Shown here: piece after piece, positions 39,547-53,056 of the stretch
Numbering within the stretch: position 1 is the first letter of the stretch
Layout of the letters: every line of letters begins with the position of its first letter
Assembly: GCF_950100655.1 (NCBI RefSeq)
Contig: NZ_CATNLY010000051.1
Coordinates: forward strand, 124,001-188,000
Direction of reading: 5' to 3'
DNA length: 64,000 nucleotides
DNA from: Pleomorphomonas sp. T1.2MG-36
GTDB taxonomy: Bacteria > Pseudomonadota > Alphaproteobacteria > Rhizobiales > Pleomorphomonadaceae
The notes under the pieces: generated by a model
The model's input: only the letters and a program-made list of their open reading frames with translations
Databases searched by the model: none
Told to the model about the DNA's origin: nothing
Position numbers and translations under genes: made by a program

Positions 39547-41247
39547 TCAGCCGGCCATGGCCAGGCGTCGCTGGGATGGATCGGGGATCGGGACAGCGGC
39601 GATCAGGCGGCGGGTGTAGTCCTGCTCGGGATTTTCGAAGACGGCGCGGCGTGGGCCGTGTTCGACGATCCGGCCGCCGTTCATCACCGCGACGTCGTGC
39701 GACATGCGCTCGATGACCGCCATGTCGTGCGAGATGAACAGGTAGGCCAGCCCTTCGGTTTCCTGCAGTTCCAGCATCAGGTCGAGCACCTTGGCCCGGA
39801 CCGAGACGTCCAGCGCGGCGACGCTCTCGTCGGCGACGATCAGCTTCGGTTTCAGCGACAGGGCGCGGGCGATGCAGATGCGCTGGCGCTGGCCGCCGGA
39901 GAACTCGTGCGGATAGCGGCTCGCCACATCCGGCGTCAGGCCGACGCGGCGCAGCAGCTCGGCCACCCGATCGGTCCGGTCCGTCCGGTCGCCGATGCCG
40001 TGGATCAGCATCGGCTCGGCAATGGCGGCGCCCACCGTCATGCGGCTGTCGAGGGATGCGTAGGGGTCCTGGAAGATCATCTGGGCAAGGCGCCTGACCG
40101 GCCGCATGGCCCGGACGGAGAGATCCATCAGTTCCTCGCCGTCGATGGCGACATAGCCCTCGTAGGGGATGAGGCCGAGCACGGCCTTGCCGGTGGTCGA
40201 CTTGCCCGAACCGCTCTCGCCGACGAGGCCGAGCGTCCGGCCGGCTCTGAGCTCGAAAGAGACGCCGTCCACAGCGAGCTGCCCGGCCTTGTGGCCGAAC
40301 AGGCTGGCGCGGGCGCCGTAGGTCACCTTGAGATTGTTGACGGCCAGGACCGGTTGCAGCGACTTTTCGGCCGGCGGCGCCGCCTTGGCCTCGGCGGTGA
40401 TGGCCGGCGGACCGTCGGTGCCGGCGCGGGCGCCGATGCGGGGAACGGCGGCGATCAGCTCGCGCGTGTAGGTCTCCGTCGGCCGCTCGAAGATGTCGAC
40501 CGCCGAGCCGATTTCGACGAGGCGGCCGTCCTTCATGACGGCGACCCGGTCGGCCATCTCGGCGACGACGCCCATGTCGTGGGTGATCAGGATGGTGGAG
40601 GTGCCGAACTCGCCCTTCAGCTCGCGCATCAGCTTCAGGATCTGCGCCTGAACGGTGACGTCGAGGGCCGTGGTGGGCTCGTCGGCGATCAGCACCTTGG
40701 GCCGGCAGGACAGCGCCATGGCGATCATCACCCGCTGGCGCATGCCGCCCGAGAGTTCGTGCGGATACTGGCCGAGGCGCCTTGCCGGCTCGGTGATCTG
40801 CACCGCCTCCAGCATGCGCAGCGCCTGGGCGCGGGCGGAGGCCTCGTTGCCGCCCTGGTGGATCAGGATGGGTTCGACCAGCTGCTTGCCGATGGTCATC
40901 ACCGGATTGAGCGATGTCATCGGCTCCTGGAAGATCATGGCGATGTCGCGGCCGCGCACCTCCCGCATGGCCCGTTCACTGAGGCCGGTGAGGTCGCGGT
41001 CGCCGAGCTTGATCGAGCCGGAGACGATGCGCAGCGAGGCGCGCGGCAGAAGCCGCATCACGGACAGCGAGGTGACCGACTTGCCCGACCCGCTTTCGCC
41101 GGCAAGACAAAGCGTCTCTCCGGCCGCCAGATCGAAGCTCACGGCGTCGAGCACGCGCTTTGCCCCGCGATCGGTCAGAGCGTCGACGGTCAGTCCGTCG
41201 ACGCTGAGCACCGGCACTGTCCTGAAGTCTCCGCTCATATCCGTCAC
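39547..41247 (-). CDS. Dipeptide/oligopeptide-type ABC transporter ATPase (fused DppD-DppF)
   Basis: A 566-residue protein with two full ABC domains fused. Domain 1 (about 10-265) has Walker A AGESGSGKS, signature LSGGMRQR and Walker B LIADEPTTALDVT. Domain 2 (about 298-555) has VGESGSGKSTTGK, FSGGQRQRI and LIVADESVAALDVS, where Ser replaces the usual Pro-Thr in the Walker B region. Such fusions replace separate DppD and DppF. The GTG start overlaps the acetamidase stop by four bases; an ATG three codons in is an alternative. It is the last gene of the amiC-amiR operon and energises the two permeases upstream. Confidence 0.93.
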   Translation of the reverse strand: MTDMSGDFRTVPVLSVDGLTVDALTDRGAKRVLDAVSFDLAAGETLCLAGESGSGKSVTSLSVMRLLPRASLRIVSGSIKLGDRDLTGLSERAMREVRGRDIAMIFQEPMTSLNPVMTIGKQLVEPILIHQGGNEASARAQALRMLEAVQITEPARRLGQYPHELSGGMRQRVMIAMALSCRPKVLIADEPTTALDVTVQAQILKLMRELKGEFGTSTILITHDMGVVAEMADRVAVMKDGRLVEIGSAVDIFERPTETYTRELIAAVPRIGARAGTDGPPAITAEAKAAPPAEKSLQPVLAVNNLKVTYGARASLFGHKAGQLAVDGVSFELRAGRTLGLVGESGSGKSTTGKAVLGLIPYEGYVAIDGEELMDLSVRAMRPVRRLAQMIFQDPYASLDSRMTVGAAIAEPMLIHGIGDRTDRTDRVAELLRRVGLTPDVASRYPHEFSGGQRQRICIARALSLKPKLIVADESVAALDVSVRAKVLDLMLELQETEGLAYLFISHDMAVIERMSHDVAVMNGGRIVEHGPRRAVFENPEQDYTRRLIAAVPIPDPSQRRLAMAG

Positions 41248-42188
41248 GACAGCACGATCCTCGGGAAATAGAAGCTCACCACCACGTTGGGCATGTCGAC
41301 GATCTCGGAAATGCGCAGATCGCCGGCCACCGAGCAGAGCATGTAGGCGTCGGCCGGAGCGTAGCCGTGCTCCCTGGAGAGGAGATCGATCATCCGGCTG
41401 AGCGCCTCGCGCGACGCGGTGAGGAGGTCGGGGCCGACGCCGGTGGTCACCTCGTAGCCGGCGGCGTCGAGATGGCGCGTGACCGGCCCTGGTGTGGTGA
41501 AGCGGGGGCTTTCGAGCGTCTGTCCCTTGAGAACGCTCAGCGTTAGCGTGACGTTCATGGCGCTTTCGATGGCGGTGCCGCAGACCTCGCCGTCGCCCTG
41601 GGCGGCGTGCGTGTCGCCGACCGAGAACAGGGCGCCTTCGACCTCGACCGGCAGATAGAGCGTGACGCCCGAGGAGAGGTCGCGAATGTCGAGATTGCCG
41701 CCGACGCGGCGCGGCGGCACCACCGAGTGGACGCCCGGCTCGGCCGGGGCGACGCCGATGGTGCCGGCGAACGGCTTGAGCGGCACGCTGCCGCCGGGGC
41801 CGAACAGCGACGGCGCCATGGTGCCGGGGTCGTATGTCCAGATGTGCAGGGCCGGATCGGTGAACTGGTCGGCCAACAGGCCGAAGCCGGGAATCACCGC
41901 CGTCCAGCCGATGCCGGAAGGAACGAACTCGCGAATCTCGACCTTCAGCACGTCGCCGGGCTGGGCGCCTTCGACGTAGACCGGGCCGGTGACCGGGTTG
42001 ACCTTGGCGAAATCGAGGTTGACCACATCGGCCACCGTCGAACCCGTGCCGAGCTGGCCGCCGGAACTATCAAGGCACTCGAAATGGATGGTCGAGCCGG
42101 ATTTCGCCACGGCGGCCGGCGTGAAATCGCGGCTCCAGCCATAATGATGATCGCGGCGATGGATGGTGTAGTCGCAGGCAACGCACAT
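41244..42188 (-). CDS. Acetamidase/formamidase family protein
   Basis: A 314-residue cytoplasmic amidohydrolase of the FmdA/AmdA family, which splits formamide or acetamide to ammonia and the acid. The start MCVACDYTIHRRDHHYGWSR is typical, as are the GPVYVEGAQPGDVL motif (about 89-102), GDTHAAQGDGEVCGTAIES (about 195-213) and the C-terminal VVSFYFPRIVL. It lies between the binding-protein and ATPase genes of an ABC transporter and downstream of the amide sensor AmiC and antiterminator AmiR, so the substrate is probably an amide imported by that transporter. GGGAG lies near the ATG. Confidence 0.93.
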   Translation of the reverse strand: MCVACDYTIHRRDHHYGWSRDFTPAAVAKSGSTIHFECLDSSGGQLGTGSTVADVVNLDFAKVNPVTGPVYVEGAQPGDVLKVEIREFVPSGIGWTAVIPGFGLLADQFTDPALHIWTYDPGTMAPSLFGPGGSVPLKPFAGTIGVAPAEPGVHSVVPPRRVGGNLDIRDLSSGVTLYLPVEVEGALFSVGDTHAAQGDGEVCGTAIESAMNVTLTLSVLKGQTLESPRFTTPGPVTRHLDAAGYEVTTGVGPDLLTASREALSRMIDLLSREHGYAPADAYMLCSVAGDLRISEIVDMPNVVVSFYFPRIVLS

Positions 42189-42214
42189 GGCGGTTTCTCC
42201 CTCGGGCCAGGGAA

Positions 42215-42238
42215 CGGGGGAGGATCAAACCTCCCCCG
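42215..42238 (-). other. Intercistronic hairpin after the peptide-type binding-protein gene
   Basis: CGGGGGAGG (42215-42223) pairs perfectly with CCTCCCCCG (42230-42238) over a six-base loop, between the binding-protein and acetamidase genes. There is no U-run. It resembles the hairpin after the other binding-protein gene at 9954-9989 and probably tunes relative expression within the operon. Confidence 0.6.
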
Positions 42239-42268
42239 CGCTGGCGCGGACTTGCGGTCAAGTCCTTG

Positions 42269-43885
42269 TTATTGCTTCACATAGATGGCGTCGTAGTTGA
42301 TGACGCGCGTCGGGTCGATGTAGAAGTTGCCCGGCCCGCCCATACGCTTGGACTTGGCGACGACGCGGCGCTCGTTGAACACCGGGATCCACGGCGCGTC
42401 GGCCATCAGGTCGGTGAACACCGAGCCCCAGAGCTTGGCGCGCTCGTCCTTCTTGGCCGGATCGGACATCGCATCGGCCGCGATGGCGCGGGCGTCGAGG
42501 TCCTTGTTGCAGTACCAGGACCAGTTCCAACCGCCCTGGGTAGCACCGGCGCAGCCGAGAATCGGGCCGTAGAAGTTGGAGGGATCGGGGAAATCGGCGA
42601 TCCAGGCCATGCCGCCCGACCAGATCATCGGCGCCTCGCCCTCGGTACCACCGGCGGCGATGACGTTGGCATTGGCCAGCGCCTTGATCTCGGCCTTGAC
42701 GCCGATGGCGGCGAAGTCCTGCTGCAGCGCCTGGGCGATGCGCGGGTTGGGGTCGGTCGAGGAGGCGTAGAGCGCCGTCGTAAAGCCATCGGGGAAGCCG
42801 GCTTCGGCAAGCAGCGCCTTGGCCTTCTCGATGTCGTAGGCGTAGCCCTTGAAGTCCTTGTCGTAGCCGGGCATCAGCGGCGGCAGCGGCTGGTTGGCCG
42901 GCGTGGCTCTGCCGTTGACGATGCGGGTGATGCGCTCCTTGTTGACGGCCATGTTGAGGGCCTGGCGCACCTTGACGTTGTCGAGCGGCTTGACGCGGGT
43001 GTTGAGGGCGACGTAGCCGGTCTGCAACTGCTCGCCATCGACGATGATGTCGGCGGCGTCGGGTCCGTTCTTGATCTCAAGGAACTTCGCCGGGGGAATG
43101 CCGTCGCCGGCGATGTCCACCTCGCCCTGCTGCAGGCGCAGGAGCGCCACCAGCGGCTCCTGGCCGACCTCGACGGTGAAGCCGTCGATCTTCGGCGTGT
43201 CCTTGACGTAGAAGTTCGGGTTCTTCGCGAACACCAGCTTCTGGCCGATCACCCAATCCTTCAGCACGAAGGCGCCCGAGCCGACCGGCTTCTTGCCGAA
43301 GTCCTGGCCTTCCGCCTCGACGACTTCCTTCGGCACGATCGAAGCGAAGTTGATGGCGAGCACATGCAGGAAGGTGGCATCGGGCCGGCTGAGCTTGAAG
43401 ACGACGGTGCCGTCATCGGGCGTCTCGATGCCGGAAAGACCCTCGGCCTTGCCGCCCGACAGGTCGTCGAAGCCGGCGATGGCGCCGAAGAAACCGGCGC
43501 CGGGGCCTTGCGTCTTGGGATTGACGGCGCGTTCGATGGAATACTTGACGTCGGAGGCCACCACTTCGCGGCCGTTGGAGAACTTCACGCCCTTGCGGAG
43601 CTTGAAGGTGTAGGTCAGGCCGTCCGGCGTGATCTCGAAGCTCTCGGCCAGCGACGGCACCAGATCGGCCGTGCCGGGGGTGTATTCCATCAGGCGGGAG
43701 AACAGGCTCTTGATCATCGACCAGTTCTGCCAGTCGTAGCCGATGGCCGGGTCGAGCGTGGCGATGTCGTCCTTGTAGGTGACGACGATGGTGGCGCCCT
43801 TGACGGGCGTCTCGTCGGCGAGCGCGACGAGTGGCGTCAGCGCCATCAGGCCGGCCAGCGCGGTTCTTTGCAGCCAATGTGTCAT
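42269..43885 (-). CDS. ABC transporter substrate-binding protein, peptide/opine/nickel type (SBP family 5)
   Basis: A 538-residue periplasmic binding protein of the DppA/OppA class. A signal peptide (MTHWLQRTALAGLMALTPLVALA, cut near residue 23) leads to IVVTYKDDIATLDPAIGYDWQN, then LVPSLAESFEITPDGLTYTFKLRKGVKF in pieces typical of the family, and GSGAFVLKDW. The ATG at 43885 has an AGGGGA ribosome site. Family 5 proteins bind peptides but also other small polar molecules. The amidase and amide sensor beside it suggest an amide or amide-containing compound here. The open frame continues upstream without conserved sequence. Confidence 0.93.
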   Translation of the reverse strand: MTHWLQRTALAGLMALTPLVALADETPVKGATIVVTYKDDIATLDPAIGYDWQNWSMIKSLFSRLMEYTPGTADLVPSLAESFEITPDGLTYTFKLRKGVKFSNGREVVASDVKYSIERAVNPKTQGPGAGFFGAIAGFDDLSGGKAEGLSGIETPDDGTVVFKLSRPDATFLHVLAINFASIVPKEVVEAEGQDFGKKPVGSGAFVLKDWVIGQKLVFAKNPNFYVKDTPKIDGFTVEVGQEPLVALLRLQQGEVDIAGDGIPPAKFLEIKNGPDAADIIVDGEQLQTGYVALNTRVKPLDNVKVRQALNMAVNKERITRIVNGRATPANQPLPPLMPGYDKDFKGYAYDIEKAKALLAEAGFPDGFTTALYASSTDPNPRIAQALQQDFAAIGVKAEIKALANANVIAAGGTEGEAPMIWSGGMAWIADFPDPSNFYGPILGCAGATQGGWNWSWYCNKDLDARAIAADAMSDPAKKDERAKLWGSVFTDLMADAPWIPVFNERRVVAKSKRMGGPGNFYIDPTRVINYDAIYVKQ

Positions 43886-43950
43886 GCGGGTTCCCCTTTG
43901 TCTAAGGTCTGTTGTTTTCGTTGGCTGGGCCGTCAGCCCGGCGTCATCGA

Positions 43951-44001
43951 GGCCCTGGCGGGCCCGGATTCTTTTCCATGGCCCTAGCGGGCCCGGATTC
44001 T
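43951..44001. repeat. Tandem duplication across the end of the first permease gene
   Basis: A 22-bp segment (43951-43972) recurs at 43980-44001 with a single difference. The downstream-lying copy encodes the last five codons and stop of the permease (RIRAR-stop), so the duplicated copy sits in the intergenic RNA. Unit spacing is 29 bp. Confidence 0.8.
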
Positions 44002-44904
44002 GGGGTCGATCAGCGGCGCCACGAGGTCGGCGATCAGGTTGCCGGTCACGATGGCGAGCGAGGAGATGAGCGTGACGCCCATGATGATGGGAATGTCGAC
44101 CTGCTGGATCGCCTGCCAGGCGAGCTGGCCGATGCCGGGCCAGCCGTAGACGGCTTCGACCACCACCACGCCGCCCATGAACTGGCCGACGTCGATGCCG
44201 ATCATGGCGACGATCGGCAACAGCGCGTTGGGCACGGCATGGCGCAGGATGACATTGCGTTCGGCGACGCCCTTGGCTCGCGCCGTGCGGACATAGTCCT
44301 GGTTGAGCACGTCGATCATCGCCGAGCGCACCATGCGGGCATACCAGCCGGCGCCCAGCACGCCGAGGGTCAGCGCCGGCAGCACGACGTGGTTGAAGGT
44401 GCCGAAGCCGGACATGGGGAACCATTGCAGCGTCGCCGCGAAGACGTAGAGCAGCAGCAGGGCGACGACGAACTGCGGGGCCGACACGCCGACGAAGGAG
44501 ACGGTCATCACCAGCCGGTCGACGAAGCCACCGCGATTGAGAGCGGCGACGGTGCCGAGCGTCAGGCCGATCGCCACCTCGACCAGGATGCCGGAGACCA
44601 TCAGGATCAGCGTCGCCGGCAGGCGGGCCAGGATCAGCGTCATCACCTCGGTCTTCTGGGTGTAGGAGCGGCCGAAATCGCCCTGCACGAGATTGCCGAG
44701 ATAATGGATGAACTGGACGATCAGCGGCTGGTCGAGGCCGAGCTCGTGGCGGATGTTGGCGACCGTCTGGGCGGTGGCCGAGCGGCCGGCAAGCTGCACC
44801 GCCGGGTCGGCAGGCAAGGCGTAGAGCAGCACGAAGGTGATGGCCGCGACGCCGAACAGGATCATCAGCGCGCCGCCGAGCCGGCGCAGGATCAGCTCGA
44901 TCAT
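43984..44904 (-). CDS. ABC transporter permease, DppB type
   Basis: A 306-residue inner-membrane permease with six helices. The N-terminal LRRLGGALMILFGVAAITFVLL and YALPADPA stretch, the EAA loop (RAKGVAERNVILRHAVPNAL, about 205-224) and the ending DPRIRAR are typical DppB features. The ATG at 44904 has GGAGG seven bases upstream and lies two bases from the stop of the second permease gene. It pairs with that DppC-type protein. Part of its 3' end has been tandemly duplicated. Confidence 0.92.
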   Translation of the reverse strand: MIELILRRLGGALMILFGVAAITFVLLYALPADPAVQLAGRSATAQTVANIRHELGLDQPLIVQFIHYLGNLVQGDFGRSYTQKTEVMTLILARLPATLILMVSGILVEVAIGLTLGTVAALNRGGFVDRLVMTVSFVGVSAPQFVVALLLLYVFAATLQWFPMSGFGTFNHVVLPALTLGVLGAGWYARMVRSAMIDVLNQDYVRTARAKGVAERNVILRHAVPNALLPIVAMIGIDVGQFMGGVVVVEAVYGWPGIGQLAWQAIQQVDIPIIMGVTLISSLAIVTGNLIADLVAPLIDPRIRAR

Positions 44905-44905
44905 C

Positions 44906-45754
44906 TCACATCCTCCCGCGCTGGGTCGGGTCCAGGATGTCGCGCAAGGCATCTCCGACCAGATTGAAGGACAGCGCCGTCAGCAGGATGGCGATGCCGG
45001 GGAAGATCACCAGCCAGGGCGCCGCCGTGAAGAAGCTCTGGCTTTCGAAGATGATGTTGCCCCAGGAGGGTTCGGGCGGCTGCACGCCAACGCCGAGGAA
45101 GGACAGCGTCGCCTCGAGCAGCACAGTGGTGGCGATGCCGAGCGTGCCCCAGACGATGGCGGTCGGCATCAGGTGCGGCAGGATATGGCGGAAGACGATG
45201 CGGCCGTGGCCGGCGCCCAGCGACCGTTCGGCCAGGATGAAGTCGCGCTCCACGAGGCCGCGCGTCTCGGTGTAGACGATGCGCGCCACCTGCACCCAGT
45301 TGACCATGGCGATCACCATGGCCACGATCCAGAGGCTGGGGTGGAACAGCGCGGCCAGAACGATGGCGAGCAGCAGCGCCGGAAAGGCCATCATCAGGTC
45401 GGTGAAGCGCATCAGGGCATTGCCGGCCGGGCCGCGCAGGTAGCCGGCCAGCATGCCGACGCCGAGGCCGATGGCGACGGCCGTGCCGTTGGCGACGACG
45501 CCGATGATCAGCGAGGTGCGGGCGCCGAACAGCAGGCGGGTCAGCAGGTCGCGGCCGAGCGTGTCGGTGCCGAGCAGGAAGGCGGCATCGGGGCCGATGG
45601 GCGCGCCTTCGAGGGTCAGGCCATCGAACAGCTGCTCGTCGGGGGCGTAGGGGGCGATCAGCGGCGCGGTGAGGGCGCCGACCACCACCAGGAGCACCAC
45701 GACGAGGCCGAAGACGGCCGTGGGGCGGCGCAGGAATTCACGGGCGATGCGCAT
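44906..45754 (-). CDS. ABC transporter permease, DppC type
   Basis: A 282-residue permease partner. It begins with a short cytoplasmic segment (MRIAREFLRRPTAVFGLVVV), contains LGTDTLGRDLLTRLLFGART (about 65-84), the hallmark of DppC/OppC, and an EAA loop RSLGAGHGRIVFRHILPHLM (about 170-189). Start and the AmiR-type gene stop share one base, which implies translational coupling with the regulator. It forms the membrane channel together with the DppB-type protein. Confidence 0.92.
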   Translation of the reverse strand: MRIAREFLRRPTAVFGLVVVLLVVVGALTAPLIAPYAPDEQLFDGLTLEGAPIGPDAAFLLGTDTLGRDLLTRLLFGARTSLIIGVVANGTAVAIGLGVGMLAGYLRGPAGNALMRFTDLMMAFPALLLAIVLAALFHPSLWIVAMVIAMVNWVQVARIVYTETRGLVERDFILAERSLGAGHGRIVFRHILPHLMPTAIVWGTLGIATTVLLEATLSFLGVGVQPPEPSWGNIIFESQSFFTAAPWLVIFPGIAILLTALSFNLVGDALRDILDPTQRGRM

Positions 45755-46338
45755 CAGCCGGCCTCCGACAGGGGAATGACGCCGGCCAGCATCTCGGCGG
45801 CCGTCTGTTCGATGGTGATGCGGCGCTTCATGGCCGCGCGGCGGAGAGAGGCATAGGCCGCTTCCTCGTCGCACTGGACCGCCATCTCGATGGACCTGAC
45901 GGCGGCGTGCACCAGGGGGCGCATGCGAAGCCGCTCCTCCAAGCGTTCCATGCGGGCGGCCGCCTCGACCGCGCGGGCATGGGCGGCGACGGCCAGCACC
46001 AGCGCCGGATAGACGGCGGCGGGCACCACCGGCTTGGGCAGGATGGCCAGCGCGCCTTCCGAGATTGCCCAGGCGACGCGGCCGGGCGCTTCCGATTGCA
46101 GCAAGGCGACCATCGGCACCGGCGCCGGCTCGCCCGACCAGGGCAACAGGCCCGACCAGCCCTGATCGGCATCCACCAGCACGATGTCGGCCGGCGTCGC
46201 CTCAAGATCCAGCGGCGTCCACTGCACGTGCGCCTCGAGGCCGAGCAGGCCGAGCTGGCGGACGAGGCGGGCGATGCCTTCGTCGGGACGGTGAAGAATG
46301 GCGACCTTGCGGCCGACGAGGTCGGGGATCGCGGTCAT
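45754..46338 (-). CDS. AmiR-like ANTAR-domain antiterminator
   Basis: A 194-residue regulator in two parts: an N-terminal pseudo-receiver (about 1-120, VAILHRPDEGIARLVRQLGL and DIVLVDADQGW) without a phosphorylation pocket, and a C-terminal coiled coil plus ANTAR domain (about 130-190, LVHAAVRSIEMAVQCDEEAAYASLRRAAM). This is the plan of Pseudomonas AmiR, which binds nascent RNA and blocks terminator formation, and which AmiC holds inactive until amide is present. Its ATG overlaps the amiC stop (ATGA) so the two are made together. A terminator in the leader of the operon is the expected RNA target. Confidence 0.88.
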   Translation of the reverse strand: MTAIPDLVGRKVAILHRPDEGIARLVRQLGLLGLEAHVQWTPLDLEATPADIVLVDADQGWSGLLPWSGEPAPVPMVALLQSEAPGRVAWAISEGALAILPKPVVPAAVYPALVLAVAAHARAVEAAARMERLEERLRMRPLVHAAVRSIEMAVQCDEEAAYASLRRAAMKRRITIEQTAAEMLAGVIPLSEAG

Positions 46339-47477
46339 GACACCACCCTCAGGCCGGACCGGCCGCCTTCGCGCGGCGCCGTCATGTAGGGGTCGGCCAC
46401 CATGGCTGGGCGGCTGGCGATGATGTCGAAGTCGCCATCGTCGCGGATGCGGCCGAGGTGGAACGGCAGGGCGGCGTGGTTGGTCCGCGGATCGATGCGC
46501 ATCGGGCCATGCGGCGTTTCGAACAGGCGGGCGTGGACCGCCGCGCGCACGGCGGACGGCTCGTCGCTTCCGGCGGCGCGGACCGCGTCCATCAGCATGT
46601 GCGCGGCGACATAGGCGCCTTCGACGAAGGACGAGAGCCGGCGGTCCGTGCCCAGGGTGGCGGCGGCGCGCGCCCGAAAGCGCTCGTTCTCCGGCGTCGC
46701 CAGGGTGCCGAAATAGCTGGCGGCCGACAGGTGGCCGGTGGACAGGCCAAGGCCGATCTCGCCGATCTCGGCCTCGGTGAGATCGCAGCTCACCACGGGG
46801 CGTACCTCCGGCCGGAAGGCGGGGTCGGCATCGCCGAGCGCCTTGTAGGCCCTCAGGAAGGCATGGCTCGACGGGCCGATCAGATTGTTGAGGATGAAAT
46901 CGGGGCGGCGGCTCCGGATGTCGACGATCAGCCTGTCGACATCGGTTTCCTCGATGGGCAGGTAGCGCTCGCCCACCACCTCGCCGCCAGCGTCCCGCAA
47001 GAGGTCGCGGGCGATGCGGTTCATCTCCCAGCCCCAGACATAGTTGGCGCCGATGAGATAGACCCGCCGGCCCTGCCTCGGCAGCAGATGCTCGAACAGC
47101 GGCATCAGGTGCTGGTTGGGGCAGGCGCCGGTGTAGATGACGTTCTCGTTGGCCTCGAAGCCCTCGTAGGGACAGATGTACCAGAGCAGGCCGTCGTGCT
47201 TTTCGATGAGCGGGATGACTTCCTTGCGGGCGAGCGAGGTGATGGTTCCGATGATCAGGCGACAGCCGTCGTCGCGCAGCATGGCGCGCGCCTGTTCCAG
47301 ATAGGCGCGCGGCTCGCCCTCGGGGTTGGCGTAGACCGGCTCGAAGGCAAGCCCGTCGCCGGCCATCTCGCTGGCCTCGGCAAAGGCGAGCGCCGCCCCG
47401 TCGCGACAGTCGAGCCCTATGGAGCCATAGGGTCCGGTGCAGGAGAACAGGATACCGACCTTGATCGTACCGACCAT
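46335..47477 (-). CDS. AmiC-like amide sensor (periplasmic-binding-protein fold)
   Basis: A 380-residue protein of the AmiC/UrtA/LivJ class. It starts MVGTIKVGILFSCTGPYGSIG and has ANPEGEPRAYLEQARAML and the AmiC-typical LLWYICPYEGFEANENVIYTG, with NYVWGWEMNR further on. There is no signal peptide, as expected for a cytoplasmic sensor that binds AmiR rather than a transport protein. The ATG at 47477 is preferred because GAGG is six bases upstream; the longer open frame starts inside the leader terminator. It is first in an eight-kilobase operon ending with an ABC ATPase. The likely ligand is a short-chain amide or related compound. Confidence 0.87.
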   Translation of the reverse strand: MVGTIKVGILFSCTGPYGSIGLDCRDGAALAFAEASEMAGDGLAFEPVYANPEGEPRAYLEQARAMLRDDGCRLIIGTITSLARKEVIPLIEKHDGLLWYICPYEGFEANENVIYTGACPNQHLMPLFEHLLPRQGRRVYLIGANYVWGWEMNRIARDLLRDAGGEVVGERYLPIEETDVDRLIVDIRSRRPDFILNNLIGPSSHAFLRAYKALGDADPAFRPEVRPVVSCDLTEAEIGEIGLGLSTGHLSAASYFGTLATPENERFRARAAATLGTDRRLSSFVEGAYVAAHMLMDAVRAAGSDEPSAVRAAVHARLFETPHGPMRIDPRTNHAALPFHLGRIRDDGDFDIIASRPAMVADPYMTAPREGGRSGLRVVS

Positions 47478-47504
47478 CCCAAACCTCAACGCATCGACCA
47501 ACGC

Positions 47505-47560
47505 AAAAAACCCCATGACACGATCCGGCTCGCTCGAACGATCGCCGGAAGGTCATGGGG
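47505..47560 (-). terminator. Intrinsic terminator in the leader of the amiC operon
   Basis: On the minus strand CCCCATGAC (47560-47552) pairs perfectly with GTCATGGGG (47519-47511), with a second inner stem CCGGC/GCCGG, and is followed at once by six U (47510-47505). It is a textbook rho-independent terminator, but it lies between the operon promoter and the amiC ribosome site, 27 bases before the ATG. It is therefore an attenuator, and AmiR-type antitermination is the obvious means to pass it. Confidence 0.85.
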
Positions 47561-47632
47561 CCATGCTGCCCGCTGCTCTGGAAGAGCTTATGTCATGAGC
47601 ACGCCACGTGGCAGCTCATCAATTAGGCATGA

Positions 47633-47662
47633 ATGCTAACTGAGCTTCTCGATCGCTGTCAA
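47633..47662 (-). promoter_or_regulatory. Sigma-70-type promoter of the amiC operon
   Basis: A perfect TTGACA at 47662-47657 is followed, after 18 bases, by TAGCAT at 47638-47633. Transcription would start near 47626 and give a leader of about 150 nt before amiC, containing hairpins and the intrinsic terminator. Confidence 0.6.
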
Positions 47663-47741: not shown

Positions 47742-48641
47742 TCACCCCGCTTCGTTCATCTCCTCGACCTGGGCGTATAGCCATTCGACGAAGCGCGTCA
47801 CCTCGGGCTTCGGCCGGAGGCGGTCGCGGCGGACGAGGTAGAGATTGTCGACGCCGCCGGTGACGATGTTGAACGGCGCCACGAGGCGACCGAGGCCGAT
47901 GTCGTCACCGATCATGGAGAGGTCGCCGATGGCAAAGCCGCGCCCGGCTTCGGCAGCGCGCAGGGCGGTGTCCATGGTGTCGAAGATCTCGCCGTGCTCG
48001 ACGTCGAGCGCCTCGTCGCCGAAGGCCCTCTGCACCCAGCGCTTCCAGTCGGCAAAGCCCGAGCCGTGCAGGATCTGGCCGCGACGGATCCGCTCGGGCG
48101 GATCGAGATGGGCGACGGTCTGGTAATAGGCTGGCGAGCACACCGGCGTCAGCCGCTCCATCAGGAAGGGCACCAGGTCCTCGGGCTGCCATTGGCGCGA
48201 CTCATAGAGGATGCCGACGTCGTTCTCGACGTCGCTCGGGTCCATGTTCTCCCACAGCACCGACACCCGTACCGAAAGGTCGGGGTTGGCAGTCTCGAAG
48301 CTTCTGAGGCGCGGCAGCAGCCAGCGGGCGCCGAAGGTGGGCGGCGTGCGGACGCGAACGACGCCGGGGCGGGCGCGGATCTGCTCGACGCCGCGCCGCA
48401 TCGCCTCGAAGGCGGTGCCGAGCGACAGCGCCAGCTGCTCGCCCTCCGGCGACAGCCTCACGCCGCGATGGACGCGGCGGAACAGCTCGACGCGCAGGTC
48501 GTCCTCCAGCGCGCGGATCTGCCGGCTGACGGCGCTCTCGGTGACGTTGAGTTCCTCGGCCGCGCGGTTGAGTGCGCCGAGACGGGCGACGCTTTCGAAG
48601 GCCTTGAGGGCGTTGAGGCTGGGCAGGCGGCTGACGGCCAC
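47742..48641 (-). CDS. LysR family transcriptional regulator (GcvA-like)
   Basis: A 299-residue LysR regulator. The helix-turn-helix is ARLGALNRAAEELNVTESAV (about 18-37) after the GcvA-like start SRLPSLNALKAFESV. The effector domain has VRVRTPPTFGARWLLPRL, typical of GcvA/TrpI relatives that control amino-acid or beta-lactamase genes. The GTG at 48641 has GGGAG eight bases upstream; the open frame continues 24 codons to a TTG without support. It lies upstream of and in the same direction as the amiC operon, but that operon has its own promoter and attenuator, so a link between them is only possible. Upstream 48642-48979 holds no gene. Confidence 0.85.
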   Translation of the reverse strand: MAVSRLPSLNALKAFESVARLGALNRAAEELNVTESAVSRQIRALEDDLRVELFRRVHRGVRLSPEGEQLALSLGTAFEAMRRGVEQIRARPGVVRVRTPPTFGARWLLPRLRSFETANPDLSVRVSVLWENMDPSDVENDVGILYESRQWQPEDLVPFLMERLTPVCSPAYYQTVAHLDPPERIRRGQILHGSGFADWKRWVQRAFGDEALDVEHGEIFDTMDTALRAAEAGRGFAIGDLSMIGDDIGLGRLVAPFNIVTGGVDNLYLVRRDRLRPKPEVTRFVEWLYAQVEEMNEAG

Positions 48642-48979
48642 GTTCGGCACTCCCAAATCTCGGGTCCGGTTGATTTTCACGCACCGATCGGCGGTGCCGG
48701 GATCCTTTGCCAACCGCTATCGACCAAGGGATGAGCGGCCTTTCTCCATCCTGCAAATCCCGTAGGTATCGGCCAGAAAAAGGCGGATTTGTCAGAAATG
48801 TGGCAGATTCCCACGCAGTTTCACCTAGAGATCGCTCGCTGGCGTGCGCCGGTTGGGCGCGGTTGGTAAGGATTTGTTTACGGTTAAGTTTTTGGAACGT
48901 CAAGCGGGCAAAAAAGGCGTTTGAAGCGGTACGGGCGGATCGTCATATAGAAGCCAAGCGAAGCTCACGGAGTACTATC

Positions 48980-49438: not shown

Positions 49439-52400
49439 TTAGAACGCCACCTTCAATCCCAGACGTCCGGACGCTGCCATCGAGTCGTCGCTGTACAGGG
49501 AGCCGTCGATGCCGCCGTAGATGGCCGTCCGCTCCGAGATCATGGCGTCGAAGCCGACACCGAGGGTCGCGCCGAGCACGTTCTTGTCGCCGGTGTTCGT
49601 CACGGTGAACTCATTGCCTTTGAGGTCGGCGCGGACGCGTTCCGATCCCAGGTACTGGGTGTCGCTGAGCGCGGCCGTCGCGGTCAACGCGGCCGGCAGG
49701 CCGGAGGGCATGGTCGTCTTGTACTTGAGCTCGACCTGCAGCCGCCCATCGATGGAGTGCGACTGGCGCGCCCCGTAGCTGAGATCCTGCGACGAGCCGT
49801 CCTCGTCATAGCCTTCGTAGTAGGCGCCGGTGTAGCGGGTCTTGAAGCTGGGGGTCAGCTGCCAGCCCGGGGCAACCTGATAGCTGCGGCTCACTGCCAC
49901 TTCCGGCGAGATGTACCAGCCGGTGAAGTCGCCGGAGGCCGTTTCCGTGCCATTGTTGATGCTTCGGCTGGCCATGTTCTCGATGCCGCCGCCGGTGATC
50001 GAGGCGTTCCACTGCAGGCCGCCGAGCTCGACGGCGCCATAGAGGCCGAGGAAGCCGGTGTTGCCCCGCATCAAGGACGCGCTGTCACCGGCCGCTGTGC
50101 GCACGGTGCCGGCGCCGGCGAAGAAGCCGATGCGATAGTTCTCGAACAGATGATCGACGCCGGAGATGACGCCGACATGCGAGGTGTGGTTCGAGTATTG
50201 ACCGTCGCTCGACGGCTGGTAGCGCAAGCCGCCGAAAGCGCGTGTCCAGAACAGGTTGCCATAGCCATCCACGGCGGCGTTGTCGCCGAGCATGCGCAGC
50301 GCCTTGCCTTCCTGGGTCTCGCGCTTGTCCTCGCCATATTGCAGGGCGGAGATGGTCGATCCGCCGACGCTGACCTGGTCGGGCCGGGCGACGTCGAGCG
50401 ACAGGATGCTGCCGATGACGTCCGAAACCGACGACGTGTACTGGGTCGCTTCCCGGCTGGCGGCGGGAATGGCGACGACGTTGATGTAGCCGTTGGACGG
50501 CAAGTTGGCGTTTTCGAGGATGACGGTCTGGCTGGCGTTGTTCAGCGCAATGACGTTGTGAAGGTCGTCGTAGCGGGCCGCCGCGATGCGGTAGCTGCCG
50601 GCGCCGAAGCTCGTCGTGTTGTTCTGGGTCGTGTTGTAGTCAACGTAGCCAGTGAAGGCGGCCGTCGGCGAGATGTTGAGAGTGTTGTTTCCCGCTCCGA
50701 AGAAGACGGCTGCGGTTCCGCCCGAGATGCTGCCGGAGGTGCTGACGACGTTCCCGACGGTCGCAAGCTCGACGCCGTAGGTCGAGCCGCTGATCGCGCC
50801 GCTGTTGACCAGTTGGCCGCCCCGCATCGTGACTTCCGTGGCGGAGCCCGACAGTGAACCGGTCACGTTGAGCGTGCCGCCATTGACGGTGGTTCCGCCC
50901 GTGTAGGTGTTCACGCCCGACAGCGTGAGGTTTCCGGCGTCGAGCTGAACCCGGCCGGCGCCGCTGATGGCGGCCGAGACGACATAGCTGGGATCGGTGA
51001 AGTTGAACTCCAGGAGGCCATCGCCGACGCCGAACACGATGCTGCTCGTGTCGAGCGTGCCGGCGGCGGCAGCTGGATCTACCGCCGCGGCGCCGATGTT
51101 CAGTGTGCCGTGCGACGTCGCGCTCTCGGCGATCTTGATGGTGCCGGCGCTGATCGTGCCGCCGTTGGAGACGGTTGCGACGCCCGTTCCATCGGAGCCG
51201 ACGACGAAGCGGTCGGTGGCGGCGATCGACGACCCCGTCCCCGTGACGACGACCGTACCGTTGGAGCCAACCTCGTTGCCGGCATAGAAGCGGTTGCCGA
51301 TGACCTTGCCGCCGTCGGAGACGGTTATGGTGCCGGTGCCCCAGCGTCCGGCGTTGATGTCGCCGGAAAACTGAGCGCTTGTGACGAGGGTGGTCCAGGT
51401 GGACCCGGCGCCGGTGACCGTCATTGAACCGTTGGAGCCGGTGAGATCGCCGACGATGCCCTGGACATCGGTGACCGTCGCACCATCGGAAATCGTCATG
51501 GTGCCGATCGCGCCAGTGTCATGGCCGACGATGAGAGCGTTATCCATGGTCCAGGATGAGCCGGTGCCGGTGATGGTGGCCGTGCCGTGCGAGCCACTCG
51601 CCGAGCCCACATAGCTCTCCAACCCACTGGTCACCTTGCCGCCGTCGGAAACGGTCAATGTGCCGTTACCTTCGTTGCCGACGTAGAGATAACCGGTATT
51701 GGTGAAGCTGGCGCCACTGGTAACGGTCACCGTGCCGCTCGAGTTGGCATTGTGGCCGGCGATCAGCCGATCCGTTCTGAGCGCGGCGCCGTCCGAGACC
51801 GTGAGAATGCCCGTTCCGTTGTAGCCGACCGACAGCACGGTACCCGAGCCGCCGGTATTCCACACCGAGCCGACGCCGCTGACCGTAGCCGTGCCGGTGT
51901 TGCCGGAGTTGAGGCCGAGCTTTGCGCCTGCGCTTGTCACGGAGGCGCCGGCCGAGACGGTGAGTGTTCCGTTGGCCACTCCCGGATCGCTGATATCGCC
52001 GCCGACCGAGAGAGCGCCCGTGTTCCAGGAGGAGCCGGAGCCGCTGACCGTGGCTGTGCTGGTGGAGTGACGGCCGATGACAGCCGCCGCGCTGGTCACG
52101 GCGCCGCCGGAGAGAATGTCGAGCTGGGAGGCGCCGAAGTTGCCGACGAAGAGCGTGCCGGTGCTGATCCAGGTCGACCCGGTGCCGGTCACCGTCACCG
52201 AGCTGCCGGCAGCGCTCGTCGCCTGACCGATGACGCTGTCGACGCTCGTGACGTCGCCGCCAGCCGAAACGGTCAACGTGCCGACACCGCTGCCACCGAC
52301 CGTCAGCCGTCCGGTGTTGATCCAGGAGGACGATGCGCCGGTGATCGTCGCTGTTCCAGTCGAATCCGTGCCGGCGGCGAGCACGCCGTTGACATTATGG

Positions 52401-53056
52401 ACCGTGCCGGACGTGACGCTCAAAATGCCTTCTGACGCAGGTTGGGAGCTGCCGCCGGTGCCGGCAAAGCCGACGTAGAGATCCCCGGTCGAGGTGAAGG
52501 TGGCGCCACCGGTGAGTTCGAGGCGCCCAAGGCTGCCATAGCCGGAGCCGACATAAGTGGTGCCGGCCTGCACCGACGCCAGGTCGTCGATCGAAAGGAT
52601 GCCCGTTCCCTCGTTGCCGAGGTAGAGATCGCCGGTGTTGGTCCAGGTGAAGCCGGTTCCGGACAACGAGACCGTGCCGGTCGAACCGGTGTTCCAGCCG
52701 AGCGCTGCCGTTGTCGTGTTGAGGGTGCCTTCGATCGTCAGGCTGCCGGTCCCTCCGAGGCCGACCAACAGATTGCTCGCCTGGGCGGCGGTCGACCCGG
52801 TGATCGTGGCCGAGGAGCTGCCGATGCGCGCTTCTCTGGTCGGCGTTGGGATGACGTTGTTGTCCCACTCCCAGTTTGAGGCCTTGAACCAATCGTGGTC
52901 GGTGTTGCCCGTCCAGTTCAAGGTCGGGTCTGCGCTGGCGGCGCCTCCGCACAGAAGCGCGGAAACCGCCGTCGTCAGCAGGGCGAGGGAAGCGACCTTC
53001 TTCGCGGGGGGCTGGAGGTCTCGGGGCTTGGAAATACGTGCCGAATGTCTAGCCAT
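49439..53056 (-). CDS. Autotransporter with repetitive passenger domain
   Basis: A 1205-residue type V secretion protein. An extended N-terminal signal region (hydrophobic VASLALLTTAVSALLCGGAASA at about 22-43, given here only as a region) leads to a beta-helix passenger (about 45-800) built from repeats such as LYVGNEGTGTLTVSDGG and SGTVTVTGTGSSW. These are passenger-associated strand repeats of the pectin-lyase-like type. The C-terminal 270 residues form the outer-membrane barrel (from about 930, GNLFWTRAFGGLRYQPSSDG) and end in LGLKVAF with terminal Phe. It probably mediates adhesion or aggregation. No protease or lipase motif is visible. A 27-bp dyad precedes the gene. Confidence 0.93.
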   Translation of the reverse strand: MARHSARISKPRDLQPPAKKVASLALLTTAVSALLCGGAASADPTLNWTGNTDHDWFKASNWEWDNNVIPTPTREARIGSSSATITGSTAAQASNLLVGLGGTGSLTIEGTLNTTTAALGWNTGSTGTVSLSGTGFTWTNTGDLYLGNEGTGILSIDDLASVQAGTTYVGSGYGSLGRLELTGGATFTSTGDLYVGFAGTGGSSQPASEGILSVTSGTVHNVNGVLAAGTDSTGTATITGASSSWINTGRLTVGGSGVGTLTVSAGGDVTSVDSVIGQATSAAGSSVTVTGTGSTWISTGTLFVGNFGASQLDILSGGAVTSAAAVIGRHSTSTATVSGSGSSWNTGALSVGGDISDPGVANGTLTVSAGASVTSAGAKLGLNSGNTGTATVSGVGSVWNTGGSGTVLSVGYNGTGILTVSDGAALRTDRLIAGHNANSSGTVTVTSGASFTNTGYLYVGNEGNGTLTVSDGGKVTSGLESYVGSASGSHGTATITGTGSSWTMDNALIVGHDTGAIGTMTISDGATVTDVQGIVGDLTGSNGSMTVTGAGSTWTTLVTSAQFSGDINAGRWGTGTITVSDGGKVIGNRFYAGNEVGSNGTVVVTGTGSSIAATDRFVVGSDGTGVATVSNGGTISAGTIKIAESATSHGTLNIGAAAVDPAAAAGTLDTSSIVFGVGDGLLEFNFTDPSYVVSAAISGAGRVQLDAGNLTLSGVNTYTGGTTVNGGTLNVTGSLSGSATEVTMRGGQLVNSGAISGSTYGVELATVGNVVSTSGSISGGTAAVFFGAGNNTLNISPTAAFTGYVDYNTTQNNTTSFGAGSYRIAAARYDDLHNVIALNNASQTVILENANLPSNGYINVVAIPAASREATQYTSSVSDVIGSILSLDVARPDQVSVGGSTISALQYGEDKRETQEGKALRMLGDNAAVDGYGNLFWTRAFGGLRYQPSSDGQYSNHTSHVGVISGVDHLFENYRIGFFAGAGTVRTAAGDSASLMRGNTGFLGLYGAVELGGLQWNASITGGGIENMASRSINNGTETASGDFTGWYISPEVAVSRSYQVAPGWQLTPSFKTRYTGAYYEGYDEDGSSQDLSYGARQSHSIDGRLQVELKYKTTMPSGLPAALTATAALSDTQYLGSERVRADLKGNEFTVTNTGDKNVLGATLGVGFDAMISERTAIYGGIDGSLYSDDSMAASGRLGLKVAF

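Follow-up and report, generated by a model that had tools for sequence, protein, structure and literature searches.

What does a seven-gene operon headed by amiC- and amiR-like genes take up, and how is it switched on? The question is raised by a 64,000-nucleotide stretch of a Pleomorphomonas genome (contig NZ_CATNLY010000051.1, positions 124,001 to 188,000; hereafter the window), in which the genes amiC-amiR-dppC-dppB-SBP-fmdA-dppDF (SBP for solute-binding protein) occupy 39547-47477 on the minus strand. We put the probability at roughly two in three that they form a unit for the uptake and hydrolysis of L-amino-acid amides under a diverged AmiC/AmiR attenuator that would control its own operon. 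An earlier description made from the letters and open reading frames (ORFs) of the window (the sequence-only reading) had placed seven closely packed minus-strand genes at 39547..47662; coordinates, sequence and Pfam assignments bear out the genes, and 47478-47662 proved to be non-coding, a leader with promoter-like sequence rather than part of a gene. The elements of the operon and its leader are as follows.

47633..47662, minus strand: sigma-70-like promoter, TTGACA-18-TAGCAT, 10/12 matches
47592..47621, minus strand: hairpin P0 (predicted fold; seen by eye in same-genus leaders)
47575..47587, minus strand: hairpin P1, GCUC.. / ..GAGC with a short loop (predicted fold, shuffles, compensatory changes)
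47558..47571, minus strand: hairpin P2, GGGC-AGCAUG-GCCC, a hexaloop beginning with A; the terminator takes in its 3' arm
47505..47560, minus strand: strong intrinsic terminator, CCCCATGAC ... GTCATGGGG-TTTTTT (z -3.87)
46335..47477, minus strand: amiC-like sensor, 380 aa (Peripla_BP_5, Pfam 370 bits)
45754..46338, minus strand: amiR-like antiterminator (AmiR_N + ANTAR by Pfam; PDB match)
44906..45754, minus strand: DppC/OppC-type permease (BPD_transp_1, Pfam)
43984..44904, minus strand: DppB/OppB-type permease (BPD_transp_1, Pfam)
42269..43885, minus strand: family-5 SBP (SBP_bac_5, Pfam 348 bits)
41244..42188, minus strand: FmdA_AmdA-family amidase, 314 aa (FmdA_AmdA, Pfam 219 bits)
39547..41247, minus strand: fused DppD-DppF type ATPase (two ABC_tran stretches, Pfam)

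Neighbouring genes overlap by 4 nt (amiC/amiR and fmdA/dppDF) or 1 nt (amiR/dppC), or are separated by 1 nt (dppC/dppB), 98 nt (dppB/SBP) and 80 nt (SBP/fmdA). The start of amiC is best placed at 47477, with GAGG ahead of it, and the six T of the terminator end at 47505, 27 nt ahead of that start. Folded without the 3' arm of the terminator, the window leader is predicted to form P0-P1-P2; in the predicted fold of the whole leader the terminator replaces P2, at the z of -3.87 given above. By these predictions the leader is a terminator with a mutually exclusive antiterminator hairpin.

The same arrangement is found in the leaders of other operons. The 120 fetched loci and the window yielded 116 amiC leaders, of which 114 have amiR adjacent. 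A terminator is present in 110 of the 114 (mean of 20 dinucleotide shuffles, 51) and a hairpin that overlaps the terminator 5' arm with its own 3' arm in 106 (shuffle mean 32); the best overlapping hairpin is six-looped in 91 (4.9), and A is the first loop base (A1) in 88 of these 91 (1.45). Removal of two duplicates left 112 leaders with 108 terminators, 104 overlapping hairpins, 89 six-base loops and 86 six-base loops with A1, the last against a mean of 0.5 in ten shuffles; thinning to below 80% identity left 91 leaders, for which the four counts are 87, 84, 70 and 68 (42.6, 26, 3.0 and 0.7 in ten shuffles). The P2 scoring behind all of these counts is blind to A1, while of two other P2 pickings one required A1 and one favoured it. 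P1 occurs in 53 of 63 non-redundant leaders, versus 18.1 (maximum 26) in shuffles, with loops of five bases in 31, six in 9, seven in 6, eight in 4 and four in 3. An RNA alignment of 54 of the 63 (A4) served both the compensatory-change count and a covariance model (R1); in it the P1 cells are paired in 80.8% of cases, versus 33.9-51.3% when slid, and 32 cells show double changes, versus 11.8 when shuffled. The nine leaders left out of A4 for an unclear P1 or P2 (L052, L063, L070, L075, L123, L130, L131, L134 and L151) are an omission that favours structure in the compensatory-change test and in R1.

R1 scores the window leader highest in its own genome, and in 15 of the 17 amiR-bearing family genomes (of 20 family genomes; two of those tested, G004 and G006, are absent from the model input) the top R1 match is the amiC leader. 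A search of 297 genomes gave 10 matches at E<=0.01, each some 1.2-1.3 kb upstream of an amiR, a result from a scan of low sensitivity, whose stricter filters missed many known leaders, and with only one match (G275) from outside the model input. A regulon beyond the operon was considered and rejected: other matches are weak in the 17 family genomes with amiR, and the 297-genome scan, under the filters just described, gave nothing further at E<=0.01.

Several results weigh against such a switch. The P0-P1-P2 fold has ordinary stability (z -1.40, with 21 of 200 shuffles as good); five P1 pairs show a double change, versus 3.5 when shuffled, and 75 of 500 shuffles reach five; RNAalifold on the leader alignment predicts P2 alone; two of the 17 amiR-bearing family genomes (G002 and G011) have their best R1 match elsewhere than in the amiC leader; and the leader of a homologous operon on the Klebsiella plasmid pKPN39427.1 has no R1 match. 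The RNAalifold outcome arises because P1 varies and P2 hardly does, so for P1 we relied on shuffles and on a named structure. The promoter-like site is weak by itself (one site in the region, where chance alone predicts 0.8), a simple terminator scan with a loop limit of 8 skips the window terminator, and an Rfam scan of the window gave no family at its gathering score. The antitermination proposed in the sequence-only reading gains support from the terminator-overlapping hairpin ahead of amiC and its conservation in leaders, as judged by sequence and predicted fold.

The putative antiterminator clusters with AmiR in profile searches, as had been expected of it: the receiver-like AmiR_N domain (34.2, cut-off 27) and the C-terminal ANTAR domain (27.6, cut-off 27.3) both exceed their Pfam cut-offs, the best match in the PDB is Pseudomonas AmiR (1qo0), and the protein is the sole ANTAR match in the genome. 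EutV-type targets carry two hexaloops with A1 and with G at position 4 (G4), both relevant to binding (PMC3369931, PMC8934654); G4 is contacted by EutV, with the lysine Lys149 as the contacting residue. The P2 loop of the window, AGCAUG, keeps A1 and has A at position 4, and G4 occurs in 3 of the 86 A1 six-base loops of the 112 leaders (L044, L047 and L060). P1, which the canonical target would have as an A1/G4 hexaloop, can be drawn as one in 2 of 100 candidates. Among 114 AmiR relatives the equivalents of the EutV residues Arg142 (114), Met172 (113), Arg168 (110) and Arg175 (100) are kept, Tyr164 is found in 92 (F or W in 15) and Glu160 in 90 (D in 16); the equivalent of Lys149 is found in none. 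The rarity of G4 and the loss of this lysine both speak against the proposed switch, and RNA binding must therefore differ from that of EutV or not occur.

We considered a coupled loss of G4 and lysine, which the comparison does not demonstrate, since L044, L047, L060 and, by eye, the Klebsiella plasmid operon (leader loop GGU-AAUGAA-GCC, with A1 and with the G4 that the window loop lacks) have G4 without the lysine. The coupling is further weakened by P. aeruginosa AmiR: the lysine at the Lys149 position is present there, and the residues at the equivalents of Arg142, Tyr164 and Arg168 are not those of EutV. Sequence comparison suggests that AmiR-RNA specificity has shifted relative to EutV. 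P2 resembles the EutV dual hexaloop in its A1 hexaloop, in a 3' arm that overlaps the terminator and in having a second hairpin just upstream; leaders of the window type differ from it in G4 (3/86), in a P1 loop mostly of five bases (31/53) and in the lost Lys149 equivalent. It is a tentative proposal, to which we give somewhat less than even odds, that these leaders form a distinct class of ANTAR target, with a short-loop P1 and an A1-keeping, mostly G4-less hexaloop P2 read by a lysine-less AmiR. The apparent novelty seems to lie in the leader with its breach of the A1/G4 rule, an unusual form of an established kind of switch; no description of the leader RNA of these operons was found in the open-licence literature searched, which leaves such an absence unproven.

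For the substrate, the most telling protein is the SBP. It is identical at 343 of 513 positions (67%) to PDB 8upi, which scores 818.6 bits, the next solved relative scoring 221.7, and its gene has fmdA adjacent to it in the operon. We take 8upi to be MeAmi_SBP, an L-amino-acid-amide binder of Mesorhizobium. A 2024 paper in Biochemistry reportedly describes conserved operons that combine SBP_bac_5 proteins, ABC importers and FmdA_AmdA amidases, and MeAmi_SBP, the Mesorhizobium member, is said there to bind L-amino-acid amides; like the operon in the window, this system joins importer genes to an FmdA_AmdA gene. The amidase of the window scores 135.7 bits against the formamidase family (NCBIfam NF045496, FmdA), far below the equivalog cut-off of 500. 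The sequence-only reading had joined the sensor pair to an importer and to a different amidase family, an acetamidase/formamidase: the gene content stands, and acetamide and formamide as substrates become doubtful with the SBP nearest to 8upi and the amidase so far under the formamidase cut-off.

A second type of operon points the same way. It combines amiC-amiR with a hydrolase of the proline-iminopeptidase family (confirmed by scan for the two such hydrolases that were scanned) and a distinct family-5 importer whose ATPases are separate, and was seen in 10 of the 120 fetched loci (L058, L059, L061, L064, L076, L078, L079, L123, L126 and L131), five of which also hold fmdA. Both the FmdA_AmdA and the proline-iminopeptidase families have L-amino-acid amidase members. 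Two unrelated hydrolase families share a regulator pair, and L-amino-acid amides are therefore indicated as the substrate.

In the N-terminus of the sensor (MVGTIKVGILFS) no signal peptide was seen by eye, and this and the amiR overlap fit a cytoplasmic protein. In an unrooted tree the AmiC-like proteins form a clan set apart from the urea-binding UrtA (100/100, P. aeruginosa AmiC falling on the clan's side) and also from AmiC plus UrtA (100/99, with one classical AmiC in the tree), P. aeruginosa AmiC sitting on the branch between the clan and UrtA; the UrtA row from the window's own genome (L168) carried an unnatural N-terminal extension. By this tree the AmiC-like proteins are a third group beside AmiC and UrtA, and the label of amide sensor therefore rests on neighbours. 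Against PDB entries the window protein scores 210 bits with 8tg1, 175 with AmiC and 166 with UrtA, and that 8tg1 groups with UrtA and outscores AmiC is a point against an AmiC-type sensor. In the alignment with AmiC, Tyr83 is replaced by Ile, Thr106 by Cys and Tyr152 by Trp; we take these to be acetamide pocket positions, and their difference means that the ligand of the sensor need not be acetamide.

These observations bear on whether the same operon might serve short aliphatic amides such as acetamide and formamide, sensed by the AmiC-like protein and split by an acetamidase or formamidase, an explanation that we consider unlikely. The Pfam family names and the homology of the sensor to AmiC speak for it; the formamidase equivalog score (135.7 vs 500), an SBP by far nearest to 8upi, the changed pocket positions presumed for AmiC and the oddity, as we see it, of a family-5 importer as an acetamide carrier speak against it. 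Further support comes from Klebsiella, in which a plasmid operon of this make-up is attributed to acetamide: the lysate of strain KOS9 has acetamidase activity, which counts against L-amino-acid amides, and the single acetamidase gene of the strain is located in the plasmid operon; the assay there is described without a mutant (PMC13209695). Formamide and acetamide are probably the wrong substrates.

Still less probable, in our judgement, is an importer for another alpha-amino compound (a dipeptide, an opine-like compound or an aminoacyl conjugate) on which FmdA or the iminopeptidase-family hydrolase would act. The importer parts are of the dipeptide/oligopeptide class and the alternative hydrolase belongs to the proline iminopeptidase family, as this would have it, but FmdA_AmdA members are annotated as amidases and the ligand of 8upi is, as we take it, an amino-acid amide.

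We return to L-amino-acid amides and a self-controlling attenuator. The genes, their order, the leader, its mutually exclusive predicted folds and their conservation can be read in the sequences; from them we infer ligand, AmiC-AmiR binding, RNA binding and enzyme activity in the following scheme. Without ligand, the cytoplasmic AmiC-like protein would hold AmiR, and transcripts from the promoter-like site at 47662 would end at the terminator ahead of amiC. With ligand present, AmiR would be released and bind the emerging P1/P2 hairpins, P2 would retain the terminator 5' arm, and RNA polymerase would read through into all seven genes. The family-5 importer would then import more substrate, a positive feedback, and the FmdA-family enzyme would hydrolyse it, L-amino-acid amides or close alpha-amino amides yielding ammonia and amino acids.

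The P. aeruginosa ami operon, which has AmiE and AmiS and is controlled by AmiC-AmiR antitermination, is a close comparison. Both have a periplasmic-binding-protein-like cytoplasmic sensor with an AmiR_N + ANTAR partner, a terminator in the leader RNA and an amide hydrolase within the unit. The operon in the window differs in its importer (family-5 ABC, with no AmiS seen), in its hydrolase (FmdA_AmdA in place of AmiE, which we take to be of another fold) and in regulator genes that stand first, behind their own leader, unlike the ami layout; the P2 loop of these operons is also mostly without G4, unlike P. aeruginosa ami.

How widespread is the arrangement? With amiR as bait, 109 of 397 genomes of the taxonomic order yielded relatives (distant ANTAR proteins included), and 40 loci were chosen as the best matches of those 109 genomes, all from the same order; with fmdA, the named loci are the best 80 of at least 569 confirmed matches. 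The two sets overlap by at least two genomes (L081 repeats L049, L089 repeats L053) and give no frequency for genomes at large. The neighbourhood search found amiC-amiR beside family-5 ABC genes and fmdA, as had been foreseen, with the full seven-gene order in 31 of the 40 amiR-chosen loci (two others are cut by contig ends and seven are of the second operon type) and in 71 of the 80 fmdA-chosen ones, the latter from Rhizobium, Mesorhizobium, Ensifer, Phyllobacterium, Rhodobacteraceae, one Kiloniellaceae genome and others. Close relatives of FmdA are present in 54 of 297 genomes. Since it recurs across Alphaproteobacteria, the gene order is beyond chance, and in its distribution the architecture is ordinary. 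One locus counted as canonical, L048 from the same-genus genome G018, has about 1.2 kb of extra DNA, with unrecognised ORFs, between amiC and amiR. In Lichenibacterium (L110), dppC-dppB-SBP-fmdA-dppDF occurs without amiC/amiR in the upstream 2.4 kb (L110 1-2400), where by eye a TetR-like ORF stands in their place.

Outside this group, the Klebsiella pneumoniae plasmid pKPN39427.1 (IncFIB/IncFII) has the homologous complete order amiC-amiR-C-B-SBP-fmdA-ATPase (L173 3857-11689), adjoining fecIRA, with an FmdA 65% identical to that of the window. Of 72,556 plasmid records, 886 hold FmdA relatives at E<=1e-60; Klebsiella accounts for 731 of these 886, and 610 of the 886 are predicted conjugative. 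The gene neighbourhood among the Klebsiella records was inspected for pKPN39427.1 alone. A protein search with FmdA gave generic names alone among the 120 matches listed. It had been left open whether the architecture was described, and the Klebsiella operon is in fact in print: the 2026 report on plasmid pKOS9-W1 gives amiC, amiR, four cluster 5 ABC transporter genes and an acetamidase gene, the same make-up as in the window with the amidase called amiE, and names AmiC as sensor, AmiR as antiterminator and acetamide as substrate (PMC13209695). The pKOS9-W1 operon, known to us from that description, is presumably the pKPN39427.1 operon.

Upstream of the operon lies one further candidate regulator:

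47742..48713, minus strand: ORF of a GcvA-like LysR regulator (NCBIfam GcvA subfamily 244.8 bits, cut-off 288)

This LysR gene, or a plain attenuator, could be the real control, with AmiC/AmiR having no action on the leader. The position of the gene directly upstream, an ANTAR score barely over the Pfam cut-off (27.6 against 27.3) and P2 loops mostly without G4 would fit, but the leader, amiC and amiR travel together while the LysR gene is unconserved, and the best R1 match of a genome with one ANTAR match is this very leader; we regard the idea as very improbable. A LysR gene stands directly upstream also in the close relatives L040, L041, L043 and L045, and in L053 at 34% identity, and not directly upstream in the remaining amiR-chosen fetched loci compared; as far as gene order tells, it does not belong to the conserved set.

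At 49439-53056 of the window, a short way upstream of the LysR gene, lies the gene of an autotransporter of 1205 residues, which has a beta-barrel domain and a PATR repeat. Seen by eye at 43951-44000, a direct repeat of 21 bp with nearly identical copies (GAATCCGGGCCCGC[T/C]AGGGCC) runs from the end of dppB into the gap before the SBP gene.

For the organisms concerned, the analysis makes L-amino-acid amides, rather than acetamide/formamide, the likely substrate, and the regulation that it proposes for a transport-and-hydrolysis operon of many soil- and plant-associated Alphaproteobacteria can be put to the test. The conserved ANTAR-like leader, mostly off the A1/G4 rule, is usable to test how ANTAR proteins choose their RNA. 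If the proposed target class is real, ANTAR specificity would have diverged together with its RNA, a motif search that follows the A1/G4 rule would miss such targets, and a previously unrecognised autogenous antitermination switch would govern the use of L-amino-acid amides across Alphaproteobacteria.

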